Assembly (NCBI RefSeq): GCF_004366355.1
Contig: NZ_SODV01000001.1
Coordinates: forward strand, 1,984,001-2,048,000
DNA from: Dinghuibacter silviterrae
GTDB taxonomy: Bacteria; Bacteroidota; Bacteroidia; Chitinophagales; Chitinophagaceae
Length of the DNA: 64,000 bases
Direction: 5' to 3'
How positions within the stretch are numbered: the stretch's first letter is position 1; the number at the start of each line of letters is the position of its first letter. Shown piece after piece: positions 25,675 through 57,384 of the stretch. The translations under genes and the position numbers were made by a program. The notes under the pieces are model-generated. The model worked only from the letters and a program-made list of their open reading frames with translations. It did not search any database and was not told the origin of the DNA.

Positions 25675-25765
25675 AAAAAACTTAACAGAGGATAGTACGT
25701 TTTCCCGTTTGCCGCATCTTATCAAGTGTGCGCGGGACGTGTGGGTATTAAAATGGTTGACAGAC

Positions 25766-26944
25766 ATGAAGAAGGCGGAAATCACCTATTTGCTGGAGCA
25801 ATATATGCTTGGCCGGCTGACGGAATCTGAGTCGGAAGCATTATTGGAGCAAACCTCACAAGAGAACGAAGCGGCTATGTTGGCGGTTCTCCAGGAATAC
25901 CTGGAGACAGAGTCCGCGGGGGCTATCCCCGTGGACCCGGCTGTTTTAGCGCAACTGGTGCAAAGGATCGTATCGGTGGACAAAGGACTGGTTCCGATTC
26001 GCCGGAAACGGCGGCACTGGGTGTGGGTGGCCGCGGCGGCTTGTTTGCTGGGTGCCGGTGTTTTTGCCTGGTATACCTGGACACCAAAGCCACCGGCCAT
26101 CGAGGTCGCGCAGCCGCAGGCGCAGCGTTTCAAGAACGACGTGGCGGCTCCCGCGGGGAGCCGGGCCGTTCTGACGCTGGGTTCGGGGCAAAAGGTCGTC
26201 CTGGACAGCCTGTCCACGGGCACCTTTGGCAAACAGGGCGCTGCTTCGCTGGTCAAGACGGGTTCCGGGAAACTGGCGTACAACGCACTCGATAAGACCC
26301 CGGCGGAGATCGTATACAATACGCTGACCACCGGGAGGGGAGGACAGACCTCCGTGGTGCTGGCCGACGGGACGAAAGTATGGCTGGATGCATCAAGCTC
26401 CCTGCGGTATCCCACGGCCTTCGGCGCGGGGCCCCGGCGGGTGGAACTGACGGGCCAGGCGTATTTCGAGGTGGGCAAAAAAGCAGGCAGCCCGTTTTGC
26501 GTGGAAGTCGGTGGGATGGAGGTCAAAGCACTTGGTACGGACTTCAATGTAAAGGCCTTCACCGATGAAAGTGTCCAGGTGGTGACCTTGCTGGGTGGTA
26601 AGGTCCTTGTGTCCAGGGACAATGTCACCACCGACCTGTCACCCGGTCAGCAGGCCAGGGTCTCCGACCACGGCGGGATCAGCCGGACGGATCAGGCGGA
26701 CATAGAAGAAGTGATGGCCTGGAAAAACGGATACTTTGTTTTCCATGGCGTGGATATGCAATCGTTGTTGCGCGAGGCCGCCCGCTGGTATGATGTAGAT
26801 GTGGAGAACCGGCGGAAGGATAACCCGAAGTTTTACGGAGAAGTATCCCGGAGCACGCCCTTGTCCGACCTGCTAAAAGCCATGGAGCTGAGCGGTCGCG
26901 TGACATTCGGGATCGAGGGGAAAAAGATCATTGTATTACCCTAA
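25766..26944 (+). CDS. FecR family anti-sigma factor
   Basis: This 392-residue transmembrane anti-sigma protein has a cytoplasmic N-terminus (1-83) that would hold the ECF factor and one helix (about 84-105). The periplasmic FecR domain (about 180-290; TTGRGGQTSVVLADGTKVWLDASSSL) is followed by the C-terminal DUF4974-like module ending KKIIVLP. It receives a signal from the SusC N-terminal STN domain. The start MKKAEITYLLEQYMLG is the usual one for the family. A box one base off consensus (TACGTTTT) is at 25696-25703. Confidence 0.92.
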   Translation: MKKAEITYLLEQYMLGRLTESESEALLEQTSQENEAAMLAVLQEYLETESAGAIPVDPAVLAQLVQRIVSVDKGLVPIRRKRRHWVWVAAAACLLGAGVFAWYTWTPKPPAIEVAQPQAQRFKNDVAAPAGSRAVLTLGSGQKVVLDSLSTGTFGKQGAASLVKTGSGKLAYNALDKTPAEIVYNTLTTGRGGQTSVVLADGTKVWLDASSSLRYPTAFGAGPRRVELTGQAYFEVGKKAGSPFCVEVGGMEVKALGTDFNVKAFTDESVQVVTLLGGKVLVSRDNVTTDLSPGQQARVSDHGGISRTDQADIEEVMAWKNGYFVFHGVDMQSLLREAARWYDVDVENRRKDNPKFYGEVSRSTPLSDLLKAMELSGRVTFGIEGKKIIVLP

Positions 26945-27096: not shown

Positions 27097-30000
27097 ATGC
27101 TTTTTAGGATGATTTGCTGCGTCCCGGAGCGTCCGGGAGTCACCAAAACATTGCGCATCATGAAACTAACCGCGCTTTTCCTCCTGGCTGCCTTTCTCCA
27201 TGTCCATGCCAGGTCCTATTCCCAAAGGGTGACGCTGGCCATGACCGATGCTCCGCTGGAGAAGGTATTTGTGGCCATTAAAGCCCAAACTGGGTATACC
27301 TTTTTTTATACCGAAGACGAGCTGAGGCACTTCTCACCCATCAGCATCGCCGTCAGCGGTGTTGCGCTGGAAGAGGCATTGAGCCGGTGTTTCGAGCACC
27401 AGCCCTATTCGTATACGATCGTTGATAAAATGGTGGTCGTGCGGGAGAAGGACCCGGCGTCTGCCCCGGAACCCGGTGACACCACAAAAAGAGGCCACTT
27501 GATTCACGTGACCGGGGTGGTGGATGGGGACACCGGGCAACCGATGTCCGGAGCCACGGTGACCTCGCAAAAAAGTAAAAAAGGGGTTGTCACCGATGAG
27601 TCCGGCGAATTTGCCATCGACGTGGCCCCCGGCGACATCCTGTCTTTTTCCTACGTAGGTATGGAAACCCAGGAACTGAGGGTGGGGACCCAGACCCGTT
27701 TCAGCGTTACCCTGCTCAAGGGGAACAAGCTGATCGAAGAAGTGGTCGTTGAAGGATACGGGTCCGCAAAAAAGGCGCAAAACGTCGTGGGATCGATCAC
27801 TACGGTCTCCGTAAAGGACATCCAGGAGAAACCGGTGGCCGATATGATGGACGCCCTCCAAGGGAAAATCCCCGGTCTGCTGGTCCTGAGCTCATCGGGT
27901 GAGCCCAATTCCCAGGTGTCCCTCTCCCTGAACGGGGTCGGTTCCCTCAGTGCGGATGTGACCCCTCTGATCGTCCTCGACGGGGTGCCTGTAGCCTTAT
28001 CTACGCTCCTGGCCCTGAACCCGGCCGATATCGAAAGCATGAGCGTGCTCCGGGATGCATCAGCCACTTCCATCTATGGATCCCGGGCGGCCAATGGCGT
28101 TATTTATGTCACCAGCAAAAAGGGGCAGCCGGGCAGGGATATGGTGACCGTCTCTACCCAATACGGTATATCCAAGCTGGCCGATACGAAATTCTACAAC
28201 AACTTCATGGATTCGAAGGAGCTGACCGGAACCTGGGTGGTCCAGGGATTCCAGACACAGGCCCAGGTGGATGCGCTGCTCCAGAAATACCCTAATAATA
28301 CGGTTTGGTACAAATACTATTATAAGAACAGTACGCCGGTATACCAGCAGAATGTTTCCCTGAGCGGCGGTACCACCAAAACGACCTACTTCGTTTCGGG
28401 CTCCTACTTTCACAACGAAGGGCTGGCCTATCGTTCTGCTTATGACCGGTATACCTTCAGGGCAAACCTGAATACCAAGGTGGAACCCTGGTTGAACATG
28501 GGTTTGAACCTGGCCGCCGGGTACAACTACGACCAGACCAATCCGTTTGGGGTAAACTCCACCAACCGTGGTCTGTTCTGGCTGGCCCAGCCTTTCTATA
28601 CGCCCATCAACCCCGCCACGGGGAAAGCGTATCCGACCCTCATCCCGGGTTGGAATCGCTACAACCCGAACTACCGGGCCGATGAAAGCCCCAACCCCGT
28701 CAATACGGTACAGTTCAACCCCCAGGGCTACTTGGAACTCAACCCTATCAAGGGGCTGATCCTCCGGTCCACGGCGGGTATGGACGCCTTCGACCAACGC
28801 AACGACTCGATACAACTGCCTTCCTACCAGGGTTCTCCCGGCAACGGGAACGTGGCCCAATCCTTTGGACGGTCGGTGCACATGGACTTCAACAACACGA
28901 TCGAATACGGGTTCAAACTGAAAAATGTCCACGACATCAACGTGCTGGTGGGCCAGGAATATATCGACAACAAGGATAGCTACTTCCGCGGCGCCTCCAC
29001 CGGCCAGACGGACGACCGGCTCATCCAGCTCGGGCAGGGAACCAACAACATCTCGGTTGCGTCCAACACGGCGGAATATGCCTACATTTCGTATTTCGGC
29101 CGTGTGGAATACAACTACAACGAGAAATACTATCTCAACCTCTCCGCGCGCCAGGACGAATCCTCCCTTTTCGGGGCGAATAAGCGGGACGCCACTTTCG
29201 GCTCGGTAGGCGTGCTGTGGCAGGCCAAAAAGGAAGACTTCCTGAAAAGCGTGAAGTGGCTGGACGACCTCGCCCTGAGGGCCAACTATGGTACCAGCGG
29301 TAACTCCGCCATCGATAACTATAAAGCGTTGCCCCTGGTAGGAACCTCCCAGTACGACAATTCGACCGGGTGGAGCATCAACTCGCCCGGTAACCCCAAC
29401 CTGACATGGGAAAAGGTCGCCCAAACCACCATTGGCGCCCAGTTCTCCCTGATCAACCGCCTGCATTTTGACGTGGATGTGTATAATAAGCTCACCACTA
29501 ACATGCTCGTGTCGGTGCCCTATCCCTATACGACGGGTTTCTCACAGATCACGTCCAACGTGGCCTCCCTCCGGAACAGGGGGATCAACCTCCAGGCGGA
29601 CATCGACGTCCTGAAAACGCGGGACCTCAACCTGACCGTATTCGGCAGGTTCAGCGACAACCAGGAAAGGGTCACCAAACTGTTCCAGGGTTTGGATCAC
29701 TGGGTCATTCCCAATACAGGGGTATGCTGGGTCGTCGGCAAACCGGTTTCCTATTTCCTTCCCATCTTCGCCGGTGTGGATCCCCAGACCGGTGTCGAAC
29801 AATGGTATAACCCGGGCGCCAACATCTCCAACACGAACAAGGATCCGAAGAACCTGACGACGACGTTCAATTCCACCGGCCTCCAGCAGAACACGGGCAT
29901 CCACAGAAATCCGCCGATCATCGGCAGTGTGGGTCTGAACGGATCTTTTAAAGGGCTGTATTGGGACGTGTCTTTCTCCTTCGTGCTGAAGAAATACATC

Positions 30001-30393
30001 ATCAACAACGACATGTATTTCTATGACAACCCCACCGTATTCACGGGGTATAACCAGTCGAAGGAAGTGTTGAACTATTGGAAGAAACCGGGTGATGTAA
30101 CCCCATTCCCCTCCCTGGCCAATAATGAACAGTTCACCGAGTACATCGACACCAAGATCGTCCAAAACGCTTCGTTCTGCCGGATGAAGACCGCCACCAT
30201 CGGCTATAGTGTTCCGAAGAGCATTTTACAACGTACCCGGGTGATCAAGGGTATAAAAGTATACGTAACGGGCCGCAACCTGCTGACCTTTACGAAATAT
30301 CCCGGCGCGGACCCCGAAGTGGACTCCAACATTGCGCTGGGTAACTATCCCAACACCAAACAGGTTGTGGGAGGCCTGGATGTTATCTTTTAA
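27097..30393 (+). CDS. SusC/RagA TonB-dependent receptor with STN domain (locus 1)
   Basis: This 1098-residue outer-membrane transporter imports oligomers with its SusD lid. In order it has a signal peptide (MKLTALFLLAAFLHVHA, residues ~22-38, after the N-terminal extension typical of this family), an STN signalling domain (~45-120), a carboxypeptidase-like beta domain (~148-220), a plug with GYGSAKKAQNVVGSI and the SusC motif DASATSIYGSRAANGVIYV, and a beta barrel to the C-terminus. The STN domain fits control through the upstream FecR/ECF pair. Confidence 0.95.
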   Translation: MLFRMICCVPERPGVTKTLRIMKLTALFLLAAFLHVHARSYSQRVTLAMTDAPLEKVFVAIKAQTGYTFFYTEDELRHFSPISIAVSGVALEEALSRCFEHQPYSYTIVDKMVVVREKDPASAPEPGDTTKRGHLIHVTGVVDGDTGQPMSGATVTSQKSKKGVVTDESGEFAIDVAPGDILSFSYVGMETQELRVGTQTRFSVTLLKGNKLIEEVVVEGYGSAKKAQNVVGSITTVSVKDIQEKPVADMMDALQGKIPGLLVLSSSGEPNSQVSLSLNGVGSLSADVTPLIVLDGVPVALSTLLALNPADIESMSVLRDASATSIYGSRAANGVIYVTSKKGQPGRDMVTVSTQYGISKLADTKFYNNFMDSKELTGTWVVQGFQTQAQVDALLQKYPNNTVWYKYYYKNSTPVYQQNVSLSGGTTKTTYFVSGSYFHNEGLAYRSAYDRYTFRANLNTKVEPWLNMGLNLAAGYNYDQTNPFGVNSTNRGLFWLAQPFYTPINPATGKAYPTLIPGWNRYNPNYRADESPNPVNTVQFNPQGYLELNPIKGLILRSTAGMDAFDQRNDSIQLPSYQGSPGNGNVAQSFGRSVHMDFNNTIEYGFKLKNVHDINVLVGQEYIDNKDSYFRGASTGQTDDRLIQLGQGTNNISVASNTAEYAYISYFGRVEYNYNEKYYLNLSARQDESSLFGANKRDATFGSVGVLWQAKKEDFLKSVKWLDDLALRANYGTSGNSAIDNYKALPLVGTSQYDNSTGWSINSPGNPNLTWEKVAQTTIGAQFSLINRLHFDVDVYNKLTTNMLVSVPYPYTTGFSQITSNVASLRNRGINLQADIDVLKTRDLNLTVFGRFSDNQERVTKLFQGLDHWVIPNTGVCWVVGKPVSYFLPIFAGVDPQTGVEQWYNPGANISNTNKDPKNLTTTFNSTGLQQNTGIHRNPPIIGSVGLNGSFKGLYWDVSFSFVLKKYIINNDMYFYDNPTVFTGYNQSKEVLNYWKKPGDVTPFPSLANNEQFTEYIDTKIVQNASFCRMKTATIGYSVPKSILQRTRVIKGIKVYVTGRNLLTFTKYPGADPEVDSNIALGNYPNTKQVVGGLDVIF

Positions 30394-48278: not shown

Positions 48279-49640
48279 TTAGTAACCTGGATTTTGCGAA
48301 AGTGATGTATTGGCCTGTAATTGGGATAGGGGTATAGGGTAAAGGGTATCAAGGTCGCGCCAGCCGGGCTTCAATGACGAAAGCACCACGCCGGCCTGAC
48401 CGCTTCGCCTGAGGTCGCACCAGCGGTGGCCCCATTCGAAACAAAGCTCGACGCGTCTTTCATGGAGGATCGCGGCGAGAAGCCCCGAAAAACCGGTAGC
48501 CGAAGTAGGCGGCAGCCCAGCCCGGAGCCTTACGGAATCTAGGTCCGCGGCAGCCCCCCCGAGGTTCCCTTCCTCCGCCCGGGCCTCTGCGCGGATCAGG
48601 TATTGTTCCGCGAGGCGCAGGAGGGTGTAGTTCTCCACGTGGGTGTTGCCGGACTGGATCTTATATTTAAACGGGTAGTAGTACGTTTCCGCTGCGATGG
48701 TGGACTGGCCCAGCCAGTCGGTTCGCCGCAAATCGCCCGGCTCGAAGGCGTTTAGTAAACCGGTATCGAGGGCATACGCGGGGATGGTGTTGCTGTCGGC
48801 GGGGATAAAATCATACCCTTCGTACGTATTGAGGCCGGGCACCACGGGTGCCATCTGCCAGATGGCTTCGGGGCTATAGGCGAGAAAAATACGGTTGGGG
48901 TCGGGTTCGAGGTGATAGACACCGCTGTCGATGACTTTGCTGCTTTCCGCGTCGGCGTCCGCCCAGTCGCTTTCATACAGGTAGAACCGGGCCAGCAGCG
49001 CGGCGGCCGTCCATTTGTTGGGTTTGAGTGGGCCGGCGGTGGGATAGGCGGGGGTCAGCAGGTTTTGGGCGTTAAGCAGGTCACGGATAGACAACAGGTA
49101 GATCGAGTCCCTTGGCGTGCGGGGCATGGTGCCGTTGAGGGTGTAGTCGGTGCTGGTCTCGTAGGGCACGTCCCCGAAAAGGTTGGTCAGGTACAGGTAA
49201 CAAAAGGCGCGTACGCAGTCCGCCTCGCCGGTGAGCTGCGCCTTGACGGGGGCGCTGACGCCCGTGGAGCGGGACAGGCCCTCCAGGACGGCATTCACCT
49301 GGTAAAGATAACTATAGGCGTCTCCCCAGCAGTTGGTCACCAGCAGGGGATTGTTGGCGTTCAGGGTGTTTTGTGCAAACTGGTCCACCGGCGGGCTGGG
49401 GGTGGTGTTGTAGAGCTCATCCGCGCTCAACCCGAAATACAAGGTAACGGCCCCATCGCCAAAGCCGAAGTTGGAGCCCATCATCAGGCTATAAACCCCG
49501 TTCATGGCGGCGGTGGCGTCGGCGTCCCCGGAGAAGACCTGGCTGGTGGAGCTTTGACCGGCGGGCGGGCTGACCTCCACAAACTTCTTACAGGCGCAGA
49601 GGGCGACAACCAAGACGATATATGGTTTCCAGGAAGCCAT
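48279..49640 (-). CDS. SusD/RagB family lipoprotein (FecR-SusC fusion locus)
   Basis: This 453-residue lipoprotein (signal peptide ending LCAC, Cys17) has the SusD fold: TGEADCVRAFCYLYLTNLFGDVPY, LLRLAEQYLIRAEARAEEGN and the C-terminal ILHERRVELCFEWGHRWCDLRRSG. The start MASWKPYIV lies two bases after the SusC stop, so the genes are tightly coupled. The substrate is unknown; no hydrolase is present in this operon. Confidence 0.93.
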   Translation of the reverse strand: MASWKPYIVLVVALCACKKFVEVSPPAGQSSTSQVFSGDADATAAMNGVYSLMMGSNFGFGDGAVTLYFGLSADELYNTTPSPPVDQFAQNTLNANNPLLVTNCWGDAYSYLYQVNAVLEGLSRSTGVSAPVKAQLTGEADCVRAFCYLYLTNLFGDVPYETSTDYTLNGTMPRTPRDSIYLLSIRDLLNAQNLLTPAYPTAGPLKPNKWTAAALLARFYLYESDWADADAESSKVIDSGVYHLEPDPNRIFLAYSPEAIWQMAPVVPGLNTYEGYDFIPADSNTIPAYALDTGLLNAFEPGDLRRTDWLGQSTIAAETYYYPFKYKIQSGNTHVENYTLLRLAEQYLIRAEARAEEGNLGGAAADLDSVRLRAGLPPTSATGFSGLLAAILHERRVELCFEWGHRWCDLRRSGQAGVVLSSLKPGWRDLDTLYPIPLSQLQANTSLSQNPGY

Positions 49641-49642
49641 GA

Positions 49643-52600
49643 TTACAGTTGACAATGGATGCCCCCCACCATCACTTTTAAGGGAGGAAGCACAAACGTG
49701 TTTTGGGTCTCCGGATCAGCGCCCATGTACCGCGTCAGGGTCAACAGGTTCTGGGCCCGGACATACAACTGAACCTGGTCCAGCCCCCATAAGTGCGCGA
49801 AAGTATAGGATAGGGAAACATTGGTCAGACGCAGGAAGGAGGCATCGGAATAAGCGGCCGAAGAATTGGCCAGGTCGTATCCGGCGGTGTATGCGGCGGC
49901 GTTGTATCCCGCGGTGTAGCGTTGGAGGGTGGCCTGTTCATCCGGATGGGTCCAGACGGTTCCTTTGGCCACCGGCTGGTTGTAAAGGGTGCCGGGAAGA
50001 AAGCCGCTGTTGTAATAGTAATAATAGTAATTCGGGCCTTTTTGCAGACGAAAGGAGGCCAAAGCATCCAACTGCCAGGAGCGGTAGTGCAGGCTGCTCG
50101 ACAACCCGCCAAAAAGCGTCGGCGCCAGGTGGGCGATGTTTTTGACGTAGTCCCCGGGGTAGGAGATCTGGCCACTCTGGTCGATGTCTTTGAAGGTATA
50201 CGTCCCCGTGGCGGAATTGACGCCGTTATAGAGGAAACCATCGACGATGCTCAGGGGTTGCCCGACCTGCAGATTGGAATAGGAGGACGTGGCGATGCCC
50301 GGAAACGACAGGAGCCGGTTATACGGCAGGGTGAGGTTGAGGGTCGTGGACCATTGTACCTGCCTGGTGGTGATGTTGCGCGTCGTCAGCTCTTCCTCCA
50401 GACCGGTGTTTTCGACCAGGGCCGGGAAGTTCTCGGTGATCCCGCTAAATCCTGTCTGGAGGGGAAGTCCATAACGGATCAGTTGATTGCCGCCCCTGTC
50501 CATATACCAGGCGGTCGTGGAGAGGATCTTGTCGTTTAGGAATCCTAATTCAAGCGCGCCCTCCAGTTTCCGGTTGATCTCCCAACTGTAGTAGGGGTTA
50601 TAGAGCCGGACCGGGTAAAGGCTGGCAGAGCCTAAGTAGGGATAGGGGGTGGAACTCCACACGTCCAGGTATTGGTAGTCCCCGATCTGGTCGTTACCCG
50701 TGATGCCATAGCTGGCCCTGATTTTCCCATAACTAAGAAACGGTAAATGAAGGGCCGTTTTGGTAAAGATCCAGGCCATGCCGGCCGCGCCGAAACCGGC
50801 AAACTGTTTACCGGGGCCGAACCGGCTCGAACCGTCCCGGCGGGCGGAGAGGTTGAGGAGGTATTGGTCTTTTAGGTTATAGGTGAGCCGGCCGAAGGCG
50901 GCCTCATACCGGTATGCCGTGCTGGTGTTGACCGAGCTGAGACCGGCGGCCCCGTTGGTGGAGCCGAGCAGGGCGTCGTCGTGGTAGCCGTAGCCGGAGA
51001 TCATGTACCCGGTCCCTGTGAGCCCCTGCCAGGTGGCACCGGCGAGCAGTTGCAACCGGCCCTTTCCGAGACGGGTTGTGTATTCGGCCTGTGGCTCCGC
51101 GATCCAGTTGCTGAGGTGACGGGTTCCGAACTGGGCAAACCCCGTGGGGCTGGTGGCGGGGTTTTGCGCAGCGATGGGGACGATCCCCGTTTCGTTCACC
51201 TGCAGGGCATTGTATCCTGCGCTTACTTTCAGGCTCAGCCCCTGGACAACCTGGTAGGACAACTGGAGATGGGTCAGTACGTTGCTGGACTGAGCCGTAT
51301 ACCGGTCCAGGAGATACGCCAGGGGGTTTACTGAAAAAGAGATGCCCTTGTCCTGCCACACAAAGCCGTTGGAGGCGTTTTTGAGCGCCGGGTAGTCGGG
51401 GGGCAGGTTGACGCTGGCGGTCAGGTCTTGGGCGATGCAGGCGTTGTGGTCCGCCGTGTAGTTGAACGTAAAGTCCGCGGCAAACCGTTTGTTGAGGGAG
51501 TGGTGGTTGATGCTGGCATACAAGCCGCCCCGCTGGTCGCCCAGGTGCGCGGGGAACACGCTTTGCTGCTGGTGGTAGTTTCCGCTGAGCAGGACCTGCG
51601 TCTGGTCGCTCCCGGCGGACAGGCTGGCCTGGACGTCGTTGGTGGCGCCCCAGTCCCCGATCAGGAGTTTGTTGAAATTGGTATACCGGGTGGTGTCCCA
51701 AACGAGGAGGTCCGGTGCGTTGATGGCGGTGGGCGTCACGGAGTCCTGCGCAAAAGCCGCGCGCCTCATCGCAAGATAGGCCGGTGTACCCATCATGGGC
51801 AGGGTACGCGTGACGGCGCCGGCCCCTGTATAGGCGCTCAGGCTGAAGCCGGCTTTGCCCGGGCGGCCTTTGCGGGTCGTGATGAGGATGACCCCGGCGG
51901 CGCCCCGGCTCCCGTAGATGGCCGTGGCGTCGGCGTCCTTTAGAATTTCTATGCTTTCGATGTCGCCGGGATTGATCAACGCCAGGGGGCTCAGCCCACC
52001 CTGGCTCGCATTCCCCAGGGGATTGGCGGCGGACACCAGTTGGTTAAGGGGGTTATTATTCGGTGCAAAGGGGACCCCGTCGATGACGATCAGGGGATCG
52101 GATCCCTGGAGGATCGAGCTTTGCCCCCGGACCTGGACCTTGTAATAGGATCCCGGTATGCCGCTGCTGGCGGTGATCAGTACCCCCGGTACCCGGCCCT
52201 GGAGCGTTTCCAGGGGGTCCGCCACCGGTTGCAGGCCGATGGCCTGTTGGGTCACCTTGGAGACCGAGCCGGTATTGAGCCGCCGGGTCGTCGTCCCGTA
52301 GGCGATGATCACCGTCTCATCCAGGACGCTGGCAAAGGTATGCAGCATGATGTCAAGCGGGGTGCCGCCATGGATGGGGATATCCTTGGTTTCATAGCCG
52401 ATGCAGCTGACCTTTAACGTATCGCCCACACGGACATTGTTCAGGCTGAAAACCCCGTCGTCCCCCGCAAAAACACCGCGGATCGTTCCTATGATGCTCA
52501 CGCTGGCGCCCGGGACGGGTTCCCGGCGTTCATTGACGACGCGCCCGCTTACGGTCATGGGCAACCGCCGGGGCGGGGGAGGCGGCGTCTTGGCGCGGAT

Positions 52601-54139
52601 GACGATGGTCTTGTCGAAAACGGTATAGGTCAGCGGCTGGCCGTCCATACAGCGGTCCAGGGCTTCCTTTAGGGGGACACGGTCGATGTTGAGGGTGATC
52701 CGGCCCGCGAGACGGAGGCTGGCCATGTCGTAGACGAAAAAACATCCCGTCTGGCGGCTGATGGAGCTGAGCACGTCTTCTATGCGGACCCCTTTTACAT
52801 GAAGGGTTATGGGCACAGAAGGCTCCTGCGCGTATATGGTAGGGGTCCAGATCATGGTAAACATAAGGATAGTTAGTCTTGCAAGCATGCGCCAAGGCAT
52901 TACGATGATCCTCCTTTTGTCCAGGGTAAAGTGAATGCTGCCGGTGCCTTCGAGTACTTTCAGCACATACGTGAGGCTGCTGTCCCGGGGGACAATGCCT
53001 CCGAAGCTGCGTCCGCTGACGTCGCCCCGGTATTCGACGGTGACGTCATACCAGCGGGCAATGTCCCGCATGATGCTGGTGATGTTTCTGTTCAGGGGAA
53101 GCTCGTCGTTGGTCCATGCAATGGCGTCCCCCGTAGCGGGGAACACCCGGAGCGCACCGCTCCTGGTGGACTGGGCTTCCTGGCCTTTCTGTAAGGTACC
53201 GCTGGCCCCAGTGCCAGCGGTTACCTTAACAGAGCCATCCAGAACGGTAGTCTTGCAGATAGGTTCATCTTCATAGGCCAGCACGTCGAATCGAGTGCCG
53301 AGCACTTTTATGTCGGTGTTGGAATGTTCCGTGTGTACGATAAACGGTGCGTCGGGCCGCTGCGCTACGTTGAAGTAGCCTTCCCCGTCGAGGGACACTT
53401 CGCGTACATTCCCTTTGAAAGCCGCGGGAAAGCGCAATGATGAGGCAGCGTTGAGCCAGGCGATGGTTCCGTCGGGCAATTCCACTTTATAGGTGCCGCC
53501 TTTCGGCGTCGTTATCGTATTCAGGGCTAGGTTCCCGGGGGTGCCGGTTGCAGGCGTCCCTGCCGCATCATACCCCAGGAGGCCCTGTGCTTTTTTAAGA
53601 ATGTGCGTGCCCCCTTCCACGGCCACCCACCCCACCGGGAGTTCATCCAGGATGAACTGGTGACCATCCGACATCGTCAGCGTGGCGCGCGCGCTTCCCG
53701 GGCCGGGGCTCCCACTGCCCGGCGGGGCGGTGGGTAACCCGGGAGCGGCCACCGGCGCATGGACGGCAAGGGCGTGTTGCGACGCCTGTCGCTCCTTGCC
53801 GTACCAGAGGGCGGCGACCAGCGTTGCTGCCACCAGACTGGCGGCAATACCGGTCAGCCAGTACACCCTTACATGTCTTACCGGTGCATACCGGTCGGTT
53901 AAGCGTGTGGCTATTCTGGTTTCAAAGGCAACCTCCGCATCGGTAGCAGAGACATACTTATCTATATATCGTTCTACGGTTTCTTCGTCATCCCACTCGT
54001 CCACCAATTGCCGGTTTCCGGGTTTTTCCCCGAGCCAGGCCTCGAACTGGACAGCATCTTCACCGCTGAGCTGACGGTCTCTGTAAAGACGGATCAGCTC
54101 TGCAATCCTGAAGGCATGATGCACGCTTTGATTTTCCAT
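49643..54139 (-). CDS. FecR anti-sigma factor fused in frame to SusC/RagA receptor
   Basis: This is one open frame of 1498 codons. Residues 1-415 are a complete FecR protein: cytoplasmic part, one helix at 92-113, an Ala/Pro-rich stretch, a FecR domain at about 205-310, and the usual final motif RRIIVMP. Residue 416 is Trp (TGG) where FecR genes normally stop. The frame then runs through what looks like a SusC signal peptide (MLARLTILMFTMIW, ending YAQ) into STN, carboxypeptidase-like, plug (KDADATAIYGSRGAAGVILIT) and barrel domains. An AAAAGGAGG stretch lies nine bases before ATG 52900 (MPWRMLARL), so SusC may also start internally. It is either a genuine fusion or two overlapping products. 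The start MENQSVHHAF is the FecR start. Confidence 0.85.
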   Translation of the reverse strand: MENQSVHHAFRIAELIRLYRDRQLSGEDAVQFEAWLGEKPGNRQLVDEWDDEETVERYIDKYVSATDAEVAFETRIATRLTDRYAPVRHVRVYWLTGIAASLVAATLVAALWYGKERQASQHALAVHAPVAAPGLPTAPPGSGSPGPGSARATLTMSDGHQFILDELPVGWVAVEGGTHILKKAQGLLGYDAAGTPATGTPGNLALNTITTPKGGTYKVELPDGTIAWLNAASSLRFPAAFKGNVREVSLDGEGYFNVAQRPDAPFIVHTEHSNTDIKVLGTRFDVLAYEDEPICKTTVLDGSVKVTAGTGASGTLQKGQEAQSTRSGALRVFPATGDAIAWTNDELPLNRNITSIMRDIARWYDVTVEYRGDVSGRSFGGIVPRDSSLTYVLKVLEGTGSIHFTLDKRRIIVMPWRMLARLTILMFTMIWTPTIYAQEPSVPITLHVKGVRIEDVLSSISRQTGCFFVYDMASLRLAGRITLNIDRVPLKEALDRCMDGQPLTYTVFDKTIVIRAKTPPPPPRRLPMTVSGRVVNERREPVPGASVSIIGTIRGVFAGDDGVFSLNNVRVGDTLKVSCIGYETKDIPIHGGTPLDIMLHTFASVLDETVIIAYGTTTRRLNTGSVSKVTQQAIGLQPVADPLETLQGRVPGVLITASSGIPGSYYKVQVRGQSSILQGSDPLIVIDGVPFAPNNNPLNQLVSAANPLGNASQGGLSPLALINPGDIESIEILKDADATAIYGSRGAAGVILITTRKGRPGKAGFSLSAYTGAGAVTRTLPMMGTPAYLAMRRAAFAQDSVTPTAINAPDLLVWDTTRYTNFNKLLIGDWGATNDVQASLSAGSDQTQVLLSGNYHQQQSVFPAHLGDQRGGLYASINHHSLNKRFAADFTFNYTADHNACIAQDLTASVNLPPDYPALKNASNGFVWQDKGISFSVNPLAYLLDRYTAQSSNVLTHLQLSYQVVQGLSLKVSAGYNALQVNETGIVPIAAQNPATSPTGFAQFGTRHLSNWIAEPQAEYTTRLGKGRLQLLAGATWQGLTGTGYMISGYGYHDDALLGSTNGAAGLSSVNTSTAYRYEAAFGRLTYNLKDQYLLNLSARRDGSSRFGPGKQFAGFGAAGMAWIFTKTALHLPFLSYGKIRASYGITGNDQIGDYQYLDVWSSTPYPYLGSASLYPVRLYNPYYSWEINRKLEGALELGFLNDKILSTTAWYMDRGGNQLIRYGLPLQTGFSGITENFPALVENTGLEEELTTRNITTRQVQWSTTLNLTLPYNRLLSFPGIATSSYSNLQVGQPLSIVDGFLYNGVNSATGTYTFKDIDQSGQISYPGDYVKNIAHLAPTLFGGLSSSLHYRSWQLDALASFRLQKGPNYYYYYYNSGFLPGTLYNQPVAKGTVWTHPDEQATLQRYTAGYNAAAYTAGYDLANSSAAYSDASFLRLTNVSLSYTFAHLWGLDQVQLYVRAQNLLTLTRYMGADPETQNTFVLPPLKVMVGGIHCQL

Positions 54140-54195
54140 AGTACTATTAAAACGTAGGGTTGTTAAAAAGACACCATCATCCGGAAAAAAAAATT

Positions 54196-54801
54196 TCAGA
54201 GATGGTGTGCGCTGCATAGGGAAAGGAGGAGAAGCAGGGAGGACTTGTCCAGGAGATCCTTTCTTAAGATGTTGATGGCCCGTGCCTTGTAGTTCCTGAC
54301 GATCTTAGGGGACAGGTTCATTTCACGGGCGATGGCTTCGGTATCCATGCCCTGGGTACTGAGGTGCATGACCTTCCGGTACTGGCTGGGCAACAGGTCG
54401 ATGGAGGACATGATTTTGGCCATGAGTTCGGCCCGGACCACTTCGTTGAACTCGTCTTCCTGGAGACGATCCTGTTCGATGTGGACGAATTCTTTTTGGA
54501 ACGCCTTCTGTCCCTTGACTTTACGAAGATGGTCGACGCAGGCGTTCCGGGTGGCGGTATAGAGGAAGGCGCGGATGGAGGGCAAAGAAGAAAAGCCTTC
54601 CCGACGGCTCCACAGCTTTAGGAAGGCTTCCGAAACAATATCTTCCGATATATCCTGTTCAGGAATAAAACGGCTGGCAAAAAAGACCTGGGTTTTCCAA
54701 TGGAGTTGAAAAATGTGTTTCAGGGCCTGAGTATCCCCTTCCCTGAAATCCCTTAATAATACGTCCTCACCCGATGCACTTCTGTCGACGGTCGTCTGCA
54801 T
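54196..54801 (-). CDS. ECF-type sigma-70 factor (fusion locus)
   Basis: This 201-residue sigma factor has region 2 (about 25-95; ALKHIFQLHWKTQVFFASRFI, EDIVSEAFLKLWSRR, IRAFLYTATRNACVDHLRK) and region 4 (about 135-185; LLPSQYRKVMHLSTQGMDTEAIAREMNLSPKIVRNYKARAI). The tail is hydrophobic (SSLLLLLSLCSAHHL). It lies 56 bases before the FecR start and most likely drives the FecR-SusC-SusD operon. Confidence 0.93.
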   Translation of the reverse strand: MQTTVDRSASGEDVLLRDFREGDTQALKHIFQLHWKTQVFFASRFIPEQDISEDIVSEAFLKLWSRREGFSSLPSIRAFLYTATRNACVDHLRKVKGQKAFQKEFVHIEQDRLQEDEFNEVVRAELMAKIMSSIDLLPSQYRKVMHLSTQGMDTEAIAREMNLSPKIVRNYKARAINILRKDLLDKSSLLLLLSLCSAHHL

Positions 54802-54886: not shown

Positions 54887-55705
54887 CTATTGCAGGAAAC
54901 GGTTCCTGAGTTGGGAAAGGGCCGAATCGTCCAGACCCAGTTGGTCATGCAGGTATGCGTCGATGGATCCATATTGGCTCCGGAGGGCCGCAAAGGTGGC
55001 GTCGAGGTACATCCCCTTGGCACTCAACATGTCCCGGGCTACCTGTTCGTTGATGTGCAACCCCTTTACCATGGACTGGATCATGCGTTCGTTGGCGTCT
55101 TTCCGGTAGACGTTGGTGGCCTCGTAGTCGGCCCGGATGACCGTATACGGCACGCCAAGGGCATAGAGCACAAGGGCGGCGCCGATGCCCGTCCGGTCCT
55201 TGCCGGCGGTGCAATGGAACAGTAGGGCGCTGGTATCCGGCAGGGTGAGGAGTTTGTCAAAAAATGGTTTGTAGCGGGCGGTCAGGTAGGTGGTGTTGGC
55301 ATAGAACGCGATCATCATGGAGTCGCCGCCGCTTTGCAAACCCACCAGTTGCCGCATCCATTTGTTGGTGCTGTCGCTGCCCGCGGGACAAAGAAGGTAA
55401 TCGGTCCCGGGGTTGATCTTGTCGGGTGCCTGTGCGCTTTCGGCCACGCCCCTCAGGTCCACGTCACAGCGGATGTGGAGGCTGTCCAGGGTGCGCAGGT
55501 CCCCGTCCGTGAGCTTACTGATATCCGCGGCGCGATAGAGGCTGCCCCATTTGACCAGCCGTCCGTCCGCCCCGGGGTATCCGCCCAGGTCGCGCACATT
55601 GACGGCCCCTTGCAAGGCGATGTGCCGGCGGGTGCTGTCGGCAACTTGTGCATGGACCGGTTGTACCAGCGCCAGCAGCGCGTATAGGAGAAATATTTTT
55701 TGCAT
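54887..55705 (-). CDS. secreted tyrosine/lipid phosphatase-like protein
   Basis: This 272-residue protein has a signal peptide (residues 1-20, ending PVHAQ). The protein-tyrosine-phosphatase-type fold of the Y_phosphatase3 family follows: NVRDLGGYPGADGR, the general-acid region, and the P-loop HCTAGKDRTG with nucleophile C165 and its Arg. Relatives dephosphorylate phosphotyrosine and phosphoinositides. Export places it in the periplasm or on the surface. It follows the SusD of the phnN-susC-susD operon across a terminator-like hairpin, so it may free phosphate from organophosphate substrates. Confidence 0.85.
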   Translation of the reverse strand: MQKIFLLYALLALVQPVHAQVADSTRRHIALQGAVNVRDLGGYPGADGRLVKWGSLYRAADISKLTDGDLRTLDSLHIRCDVDLRGVAESAQAPDKINPGTDYLLCPAGSDSTNKWMRQLVGLQSGGDSMMIAFYANTTYLTARYKPFFDKLLTLPDTSALLFHCTAGKDRTGIGAALVLYALGVPYTVIRADYEATNVYRKDANERMIQSMVKGLHINEQVARDMLSAKGMYLDATFAALRSQYGSIDAYLHDQLGLDDSALSQLRNRFLQ

Positions 55706-55717
55706 AGGAAAAATAAA

Positions 55718-55742
55718 GGGAGGAGGCGAACCGCCTCCTCCC
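55718..55742 (-). terminator. terminator after the phn-linked SusD
   Basis: GGGAGGAGGCG and CGCCTCCTCCC form a perfect 11-bp stem with a three-base loop. On the minus strand it is followed by TTTATTTTTCC. The phosphatase gene starts 12 bases further, so it is expressed by partial read-through or from its own signal. Confidence 0.75.
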
Positions 55743-55749
55743 GGTGATA

Positions 55750-57384
55750 TTATTTGATCAGCCACATGGGTTTGGTGATGTCGTCCGTACCTCCGTACTG
55801 AGACTGGATAGCCGACTGGTAATTCGTGGAATTATAGTTGGCCTCGTCCAGCGGATATTGCCAGCGCAGCGGAATCAGGTTGCCGCTGGAGGTGGTTCCG
55901 ATCCCGGGACCGCCTTGTCCAAAGGTGGGCACACCCGTCCGCCTCCAGTTGTAGAAGGCTTCCCAACCCGAATTCTGCCAGAAGGCCACGTATTTCTGGG
56001 TGAGGATTTGTTTCAGACCGGCGGCGTTGTCCCCGGCATAAACGACGTTGGGGTTGGCCAGGAAAGCAGTGACGTTGGCGGTCACCGAACCCAGGGAATT
56101 CCCGGCGCTGTCGGCCTCGGGGATCTGGACACCGTCGGCGAGTTTGTACATCGCCAGGGAAGCTGCAATCCCGTTGTTGTACCAGGTCAGACCGGAAACG
56201 CCCGACAACCAGCCCCTGTTGGCGGCCTCCGCAATGTTGAAACACAGCTCGGGATAACCGACGAGGATATACGGTTCCTCGGTGGCCCCGGTGGGGTCCG
56301 AATAGTACCGGGCGTAGTTGGTATACGAATATTGCCCGGCGACGGAATTGTTGTTGATGTCCCCTTCGCTGAGGTCGATGTCCGCACCGACATAAGCGGT
56401 AAAATCACCCAGGGCTTTGTGCTGCCCATAGAACTGGGCAGGGGCGGGCGAAGCGGCGATAAAGGTCCGGGGATCCTGGTCGGCCGTCGTAATGTTCAGG
56501 TAGGTATTACATACGTCCTCAAAGAAGTTATAGGGCGTATAGTTCGGGGAAATGGGGTACTTGTTGTACGCGGCGTTGTACTTGTACGTCATGTTGTCCG
56601 CGTTGGACGTCATGATCGGGTACTTTGTGGGATTGGTCACGATGGCCGCGAACTGTTGTGTGATATTCAGGTCGGCGTTGTCTGCGGCGCGTTTGCTGAG
56701 ACTGATCAGGACACGGAGTTTATAGGTGTTGATGACCTTTTGCCATTGGAGGTACGTCAGACCGTAAATGTCCCCGGTGGCGTCCATGGTGTTGTTCTGG
56801 TTGGCGGGGGTGACGACGGAGGCCATCAGCGTGTTGGCGGTGTCCAGCAGGGCCAGGCAATTCTTATAGACGTCGTGCTGGAGGTCGTACTTCGGCGTCG
56901 TGTTGTTGGCGTCCCCGGCTTCCGACATGGGGATGTCCCCCACGCGCTGGGTATACCAGATAAAGTTGTAGGCCCGGAAGAACTTCGCCAGGGCGCTGTA
57001 GTAGGTGGTCGTGGAACCGTATTGCTTGGCGACCTGTTGCTCCATCAGTTCGGTATACTTCAGGACGCTGTACATGGTTGCGGTGTTGGACCAGTTGTAG
57101 GAATTGTTCCCCCAGTAGTAGGCGAAGTTGGATACGAAGAACTGGTTCCAGCGTTGCACCTGGCTAAAAGGGATTTCGCTGGCGTTCCCGTTGACACCGT
57201 CCATGACACCGCCGCCGTTGTAGAGTTCGTTGGTGATGCGGTTGAGGATAAGGGAGGGCGGAACGGTGGTCGCGGTGCTCGCCACGTTGGGGTTGGACAG
57301 CAGGTCACCTTTCTGGCACCCGCTGAGACCCGCGCACGCCAATGCGAGCGCCAGGCCGGTATATGATAAGATGTTCTTTTTCAT
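55750..57384 (-). CDS. SusD-like (SusD_2 type) nutrient-binding lipoprotein, phn-linked
   Basis: This 544-residue lipoprotein (lipobox LSGC, Cys23) is of the SusD-like 2 type. The early segment LILNRITNELYNGGGVMDG, then YSALAKFFRAYNFIWYTQRVGDIPMSEAG, and the C-terminal KYVAFWQNSGWEAFYNWRRTGVPTF block are typical. It is the lid for the SusC gene 21 bases upstream. The operon begins with phnN, so its cargo may be an organophosphorus compound rather than a plain glycan. Confidence 0.92.
   Translation of the reverse strand: MKKNILSYTGLALALACAGLSGCQKGDLLSNPNVASTATTVPPSLILNRITNELYNGGGVMDGVNGNASEIPFSQVQRWNQFFVSNFAYYWGNNSYNWSNTATMYSVLKYTELMEQQVAKQYGSTTTYYSALAKFFRAYNFIWYTQRVGDIPMSEAGDANNTTPKYDLQHDVYKNCLALLDTANTLMASVVTPANQNNTMDATGDIYGLTYLQWQKVINTYKLRVLISLSKRAADNADLNITQQFAAIVTNPTKYPIMTSNADNMTYKYNAAYNKYPISPNYTPYNFFEDVCNTYLNITTADQDPRTFIAASPAPAQFYGQHKALGDFTAYVGADIDLSEGDINNNSVAGQYSYTNYARYYSDPTGATEEPYILVGYPELCFNIAEAANRGWLSGVSGLTWYNNGIAASLAMYKLADGVQIPEADSAGNSLGSVTANVTAFLANPNVVYAGDNAAGLKQILTQKYVAFWQNSGWEAFYNWRRTGVPTFGQGGPGIGTTSSGNLIPLRWQYPLDEANYNSTNYQSAIQSQYGGTDDITKPMWLIK

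Follow-up and report, generated by a model that had tools for sequence, protein, structure and literature searches.

A FecR anti-sigma factor and a SusC receptor in one reading frame in Dinghuibacter silviterrae, most likely a local loss of the FecR stop codon

In Dinghuibacter silviterrae (GCF_004366355.1), a FecR anti-sigma factor and a SusC receptor are encoded in a single open reading frame, and the codon that should end FecR is TGG instead of a stop. The frame was analysed within the window, the whole stretch of 64,000 nucleotides of contig NZ_SODV01000001.1 (positions 1,984,001 to 2,048,000), and all coordinates below are those of the window. We favour, with a probability of roughly 0.6, the explanation that an ordinary sigma-FecR-SusC-SusD operon has lost its FecR stop in this species or strain and now gives two products. 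The case looks like a lineage- or strain-level stop loss within a tightly packed operon, a local one-off event rather than a novel type of sensor.

Organization of the operon

The operon is composed of three frames.

54196-54801, minus strand: ECF sigma factor gene upstream of FecR (Pfam Sigma70_r2 and Sigma70_r4_2 over the cut-off)
49643-54217, minus strand: FecR-SusC single open frame (1524 codons plus stop)
48279-49655, minus strand: SusD partner gene, downstream (Pfam SusD_RagB and SusD-like_3)

According to the ORF reading, the FecR-SusC frame runs from 54217 to 49643 with no internal stop. The Pfam domains and the sequence give the order within the frame as a complete FecR anti-sigma factor, one tryptophan codon (TGG) and a complete SusC. 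The original prediction of FecR and SusC in one frame, with TGG in the place of the stop at 52894-52892, is thus confirmed by an ORF with intact domains on both sides. No signs of decay were found in either half according to the translation, Pfam and the alignment to the relative described below. Judged from the sequence, FecR and SusC are ordinary members of their families, and the joined frame is the sole departure found. The ordinary arrangement is also present in the window, as had been noted: a FecR ORF (25709-26944) ends in a stop, and its SusC (27097-30393) follows after a gap of 152 bases. Two matches to the Bacteroidota-type promoter TTTG-N17-23-TAnnTTTG were found in the window, neither of them in this operon; chance alone would give 0.65 matches. 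A predicted tyrosine phosphatase gene (Y_phosphatase3; 54887-55765, minus strand) separates a SusC/SusD pair from the sigma-FecR operon, both in the window and in the relative.

The same parts are found in the systems of the FecI-FecR-FecA type (FoxI-FoxR-FoxA and PupI-PupR-PupB) and in the sigma-FecR-SusC-SusD systems of Bacteroidota, namely an ECF sigma factor, a FecR with FecR_C, a TonB-dependent receptor bearing STN, and SusD. In these known systems the proteins are separate, whereas FecR and the receptor are in one frame here. The nearest published natural fusion that we met in this kind of pathway is IutY of Pseudomonas putida (ECF243), which is described as a fusion of two members of a cell-surface-signalling pathway (PMC5411451, PMC8999054). 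IutY is reported to join the sigma factor to the anti-sigma factor across the inner membrane, and to be activated via Prc and RseP (PMC5411451, PMC8999054). Here, in contrast, the anti-sigma factor is joined to an outer-membrane receptor, and a signal peptide is left in mid-chain. In titles and abstract openings, with most subscription journals outside the scope, no FecR-receptor fusion was found.

The two halves of the frame

The features within the frame are as follows.

52895-54139, minus strand: FecR part, residues 27-441, complete anti-sigma factor (Pfam FecR and FecR_C)
53804-53860, minus strand: FecR transmembrane segment, residues 120-138, the most hydrophobic 19-mer of the ORF
52901-53089, minus strand: FecR_C, STN-like C-terminal subdomain, residues 377-439 (PF16344)
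52892-52894, minus strand: junction codon TGG (W442), no stop; TAG in the relative (sequence and alignment)
52829-52888, minus strand: SusC signal peptide, residues 444-463, MLARLTILMFTMIWTPTIYA (from the sequence; putative cleavage site)
52589-52720, minus strand: STN domain of SusC, residues 500-543 (PF07660, over the cut-off)
52310-52552, minus strand: CarbopepD_reg_2 domain of SusC, residues 556-636 (PF13715, over the cut-off)
51890-52276, minus strand: TonB plug domain of SusC, residues 648-776 (PF07715, over the cut-off)
49643-51889, minus strand: SusC beta-barrel up to the stop (putative, assigned by position; SusC aligned to the relative)

FecR extends from M27 (54139) to P441 (...KRRIIVMP), and the earlier description of a complete FecR of 415 residues ending in RRIIVMP was correct. 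Scores over the cut-off were obtained for the FecR domain (PF04773, residues 234-331, 51.1 bits) and for FecR_C (51.9 bits). The membrane segment was picked on a crude hydrophobicity scale. The two domains, one membrane segment and the adjacent ECF sigma factor gene allow the FecR half to be classed as a FecR-type anti-sigma factor. The free C-terminus after FecR_C is missing, the frame continuing into SusC, and the whole ORF is not so classed. The SusC half has the STN, carboxypeptidase-like and plug domains and the SusD partner of a SusC/TonB-dependent transducer.

An AlphaFold model was built from 7 sequences. Its quality is good in the periplasmic part of FecR, and poor in the signal peptide and STN. 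By Foldseek, the modelled FecR periplasmic part matches 4m0h, 4m0n and PupR (6ovk). The junction shows low confidence, with block means of pLDDT of 31-55 from residue 221 of 324 onward.

FecR genes in the genome

A family search gave 47 FecR genes in this genome, and the stop is present in 46 of the 47, being absent only here. This FecR sits in an open frame of 1553 codons, and the next longest frame among the 47 has 529 codons. Several FecR/SusC pairs with frames of 1479-1676 codons were considered as further fusions and rejected, as these frames are read through the stop with which all 46 of these FecR genes end. At seven of the other 46 genes (L009, L025, L030, L033, L035, L049 and L057), the next long ORF is in phase and no further stop intervenes, and these loci are one stop codon from fusion. 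By this count, the pre-condition for such a stop-loss fusion is common in the genome. At a further locus, L037 (G000:C2:2172237-2175476), the next ORF begins (ATG) before FecR has ended (TGA), with an overlap of 4 bases. The FecR C-terminal codons there, which encode K-E-V, form a AAAGGAGG-like stretch right before the start.

Comparison of the junction with a relative

The junction was compared with that of one same-genus MAG at the locus L046 (contig G001:C21, taken as CAJCIQ010000021.1). The gene order of L046 matches that of the window: SusC, SusD, tyrosine phosphatase, sigma, FecR, SusC and SusD. The identity to L046 is 48% over 410 aligned residues for FecR and 64% over 1077 aligned residues for SusC. 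CAJCIQ010000021.1 is titled Beijerinckiaceae, an alphaproteobacterial family, yet its SusC/SusD/FecR clusters are syntenic with the window, and the title looks wrong.

In L046, FecR ends with the stop TAG, which is followed by a 7-base spacer and the ATG of SusC. According to the DNA alignment, two differences separate the window from L046 at the junction: an A/G difference, which turns TAG into TGG, and a spacer of 3 instead of 7 bases, four spacer bases being absent between adjoining bases that are otherwise identical. The effect of each difference by itself was read off the alignment. The 4-base spacer difference alone leaves an in-frame TAG before SusC, and the A/G difference alone lets FecR run into another frame. 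Both the A/G change and the 4-base loss are thus needed for the fusion, because either alone leaves FecR and SusC unjoined. One base separates the junction in the window from a normal stop. From this one close relative, with proteins that are 48-64% identical, and from the general presence of a stop, we tentatively take the TAG state of L046 as ancestral.

According to the original prediction, a stop in all relatives at this codon would reduce the fusion to a sequencing error or a strain-level mutation. This is largely what was found, by TAG in L046, one relative.

Survey of other genomes

The search for a second fusion was performed with a profile in which the FecR C-terminus is joined to the SusC N-terminus, built from the pairs of this genome. 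The profile was used against draws of 394 genomes of the family, 395 of the phylum and 396 of the order, and a shorter profile against 395 genomes of the class and 19 relatives; the draws overlap. Per genome, up to 8 candidates were scored in the family, phylum and order and up to 13 in the class. In the 19 relatives all candidates were scored, except for one genome with 150 of 220. The profile loses power outside the family and the thresholds for the phylum, order and class are strict, so that distant Bacteroidota could contain a fusion that escapes this search.

Among the family matches listed, 19 span the region from FecR_C to STN. One to three stops are present in 18 of them, and the stopless one is the window. 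No second stopless full-span FecR-SusC was found among the matches listed in the five surveys. Some stopless matches from the family and the 19 relatives reach part-way into FecR_C; twelve of them were read out as possible fusions and rejected, since all 12 begin after an in-frame stop. In these 12 the match starts 1-47 codons into the open frame, and a separate match further upstream corresponds to FecR. Going by the stop in L046 and the matches listed, a FecR-SusC fusion does not appear to be common to the relatives. The suggestion of a new sigma/anti-sigma/receptor architecture is not borne out, given TAG at the same codon in L046 and no second stopless example among the matches listed.

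Internal start of SusC

Free SusC is probably still made from a start inside the gene. Two candidate starts are located at the junction.

52898-52900, minus strand: candidate SusC start M440, 9 bases after AAAAGGAGG (sequence, folding and start model)
52886-52888, minus strand: candidate SusC start M444, homologous to the SusC ATG of L046 (alignment and start model)

The original prediction had proposed such a start at ATG 52900 on account of the AAAAGGAGG stretch before it. The position of this stretch, 9 bases before the ATG, is confirmed. The ATG homologous to the L046 start is the next one, at 52888, and had not been named. AAAAGGAGG comprises the codons for K-R-R at the FecR C-terminus. 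The ribosomes of Bacteroidia are described as failing to recognise Shine-Dalgarno sequences, the 16S tail with the anti-Shine-Dalgarno being sequestered in a 30S pocket (PMC9976891). Exceptions are reported for rpsU and some other ribosomal protein genes (PMC9976891). In this genome, a Shine-Dalgarno-like 4-mer precedes 4 of the 44 assigned post-FecR ATG starts. The Shine-Dalgarno argument is weak because the anti-Shine-Dalgarno is sequestered in Bacteroidia and only these 4 of the 44 starts have such a 4-mer, and with the coding role of AAAAGGAGG it was dropped.

The post-FecR gene starts were picked by a hydrophobicity rule, and the picks are wrong or doubtful at, for example, L011, L015, L023, L036, L052 and L056. 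L015 and L036 are not among the 44, their picked start not being ATG. In Flavobacterium johnsoniae, a weakly structured start region and adenines at -3, -6, -12 and -13 are described as determinants of initiation (PMC6847099). Of the 44 assigned starts, 32 have an adenine at -13, 25 at -12, 17 at -3 and 11 at -6, a strong preference at the first two positions. The post-FecR starts of this genome thus seem to agree in part with the features of F. johnsoniae.

A start model was trained on 42 starts from this genome, chosen by the simple rule above and including some that are not SusC (the 44 without L011 and L056, with L023 and L052 kept). Among the 18 in-frame ATGs, the model ranks M452, M455, M444 and M440 first, second, fourth and fifth; the third is M383, which is not at the junction. 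The ranks are to be read with the poor scores that the model gives to the L046 SusC start (-4.57) and to the start of this FecR (-1.17). A start at M452 or M455 would cut the signal peptide too short. Local folding is weakest at four in-frame ATGs, namely M452, M455, M440 and the FecR start. M444 is not weakly folded, and 48% of positions fold as weakly or weaker.

Codons 431-465 have an AU content of 0.514, against a resampled mean of 0.454 for the same amino acids, and 14 of 1000 resamplings are as high. They also fold more weakly, 3.2% of 500 resamplings being as weak. Relative to the amino acids encoded, AU enrichment along the ORF is highest in the N-terminal part of FecR (about codons 71-130) and second highest at the junction. 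Among the first 15 codons of SusC, 6 of the 7 identical residues other than Met and Trp share their codon with L046; over the whole SusC, this is the case at 297 of 676 identical residues. Of the proposal of a free SusC from inside the gene, the start itself is favoured by the AU-rich, mostly weakly folded and A-rich junction, and the Shine-Dalgarno part is weak.

The signal peptide of SusC looks normal, and it is N-terminal only given an internal translation start. Its hydrophobicity on the crude scale is ordinary, since 18 of 41 other post-FecR N-termini (L011, L015, L023, L036 and L056 left out and L052 kept) come out as more hydrophobic. The crude sum is 3.91 for the signal peptide versus 0.46 for the more hydrophobic FecR segment. 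By these values, the signal peptide is too weakly hydrophobic for an obvious membrane segment.

Proposed explanation and alternatives

According to the stop-loss explanation, an A-to-G change and a loss of 4 bases would have put FecR and SusC into one frame. Read-through of FecR into SusC would then give the first product, an inner-membrane-anchored FecR-SusC polyprotein. Free SusC, the second product, would come from the retained internal start, M444 or M440, and would keep the receptor working. In the Fox system, interaction with the receptor is described as protecting the regulator from proteolysis (PMC11637429, PMC7186176). In the fusion, FecR is permanently next to its partner and lacks a free C-terminus; therefore, the uncut chain is predicted to be a locked, poorly inducible anti-sigma factor. 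Signalling would rely on the fraction clipped at or near the junction. The buried signal peptide would be a problem for any working fusion because about 300 periplasmic residues precede it, it is weakly hydrophobic, and the positive charges are on the wrong side.

It is rather unlikely that the fusion is the normal product, from which signal peptidase I (after YA/YAQ) or a periplasmic protease near the junction would release mature SusC and a FecR that keeps a short extension. The substrates of signal peptidase are N-terminal segments that enter from the cytoplasm, whereas the roughly 300 preceding residues would be periplasmic here. The signal peptide with a plausible Ala-Gln cleavage region is nevertheless kept, cleavage of both FoxR and FoxA is described (PMC11637429), and E. 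coli FecR is cleaved at Gly181-Thr182 according to the literature.

It is unlikely that the junction stems from a wrong base call or from a mutation confined to the sequenced culture. The real codon would then be TAG, and only the 4-base spacer difference would be real. This would take only one A/G difference, at 52893, since the spacer difference alone leaves an in-frame TAG, and the species is represented by one genome. However, the assembly is near complete (6.5 Mb in 4 contigs, 99.98% complete with 0.11% contamination), and no homopolymer is present at the junction site. Consensus substitution errors in assemblies are also rare.

We consider it very unlikely that the frame encodes a functional single chain, in which an inner-membrane-anchored FecR-SusC polypeptide reaches the outer membrane as a covalent STN-STN sensor. 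Both halves are intact without decay, and the STN-like domains of the regulator and the receptor are described as natural partners (PMC11637429, PMC7186176). A Pro/Gly-rich stretch after the FecR membrane segment could give the reach, but a counterpart of similar length is present in the unfused L046. The signal peptide is unchanged in mid-chain and is ordinary for its kind. Five positive charges (KRR..R..R) N-terminal to it would be periplasmic in a fusion, and such a placement would be wrong for a stop-transfer segment as well as for a cleavable signal peptide. No second example is present among the matches listed, and the junction model, of low confidence (pLDDT 31-55), is silent on contact between the two STN-type domains. 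Equally improbable is a combined scheme in which one gene gives FecR joined to its own SusC and an excess of free receptor from the internal start, the fused copies being tethered pre-bound sensors with the anti-sigma half protected against Prc as long as the junction is intact.

Biological implications

The joined frame is most likely a local stop loss. If the fusion product exists, it would offer a ready test of whether receptor-regulator contact keeps the system off or turns it on. This point is disputed in cell-surface signalling, where contact is taken either as the off state, by protection from proteolysis, or as the on state. Under the proteolysis-protection model, a covalent pair should be locked off. 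A mere stop loss would still show how small the distance to fusion is, with seven of the other 46 FecR genes one stop codon away. It also suggests that Bacteroidota receptors can retain their start sites within a reading frame independently of a Shine-Dalgarno sequence.
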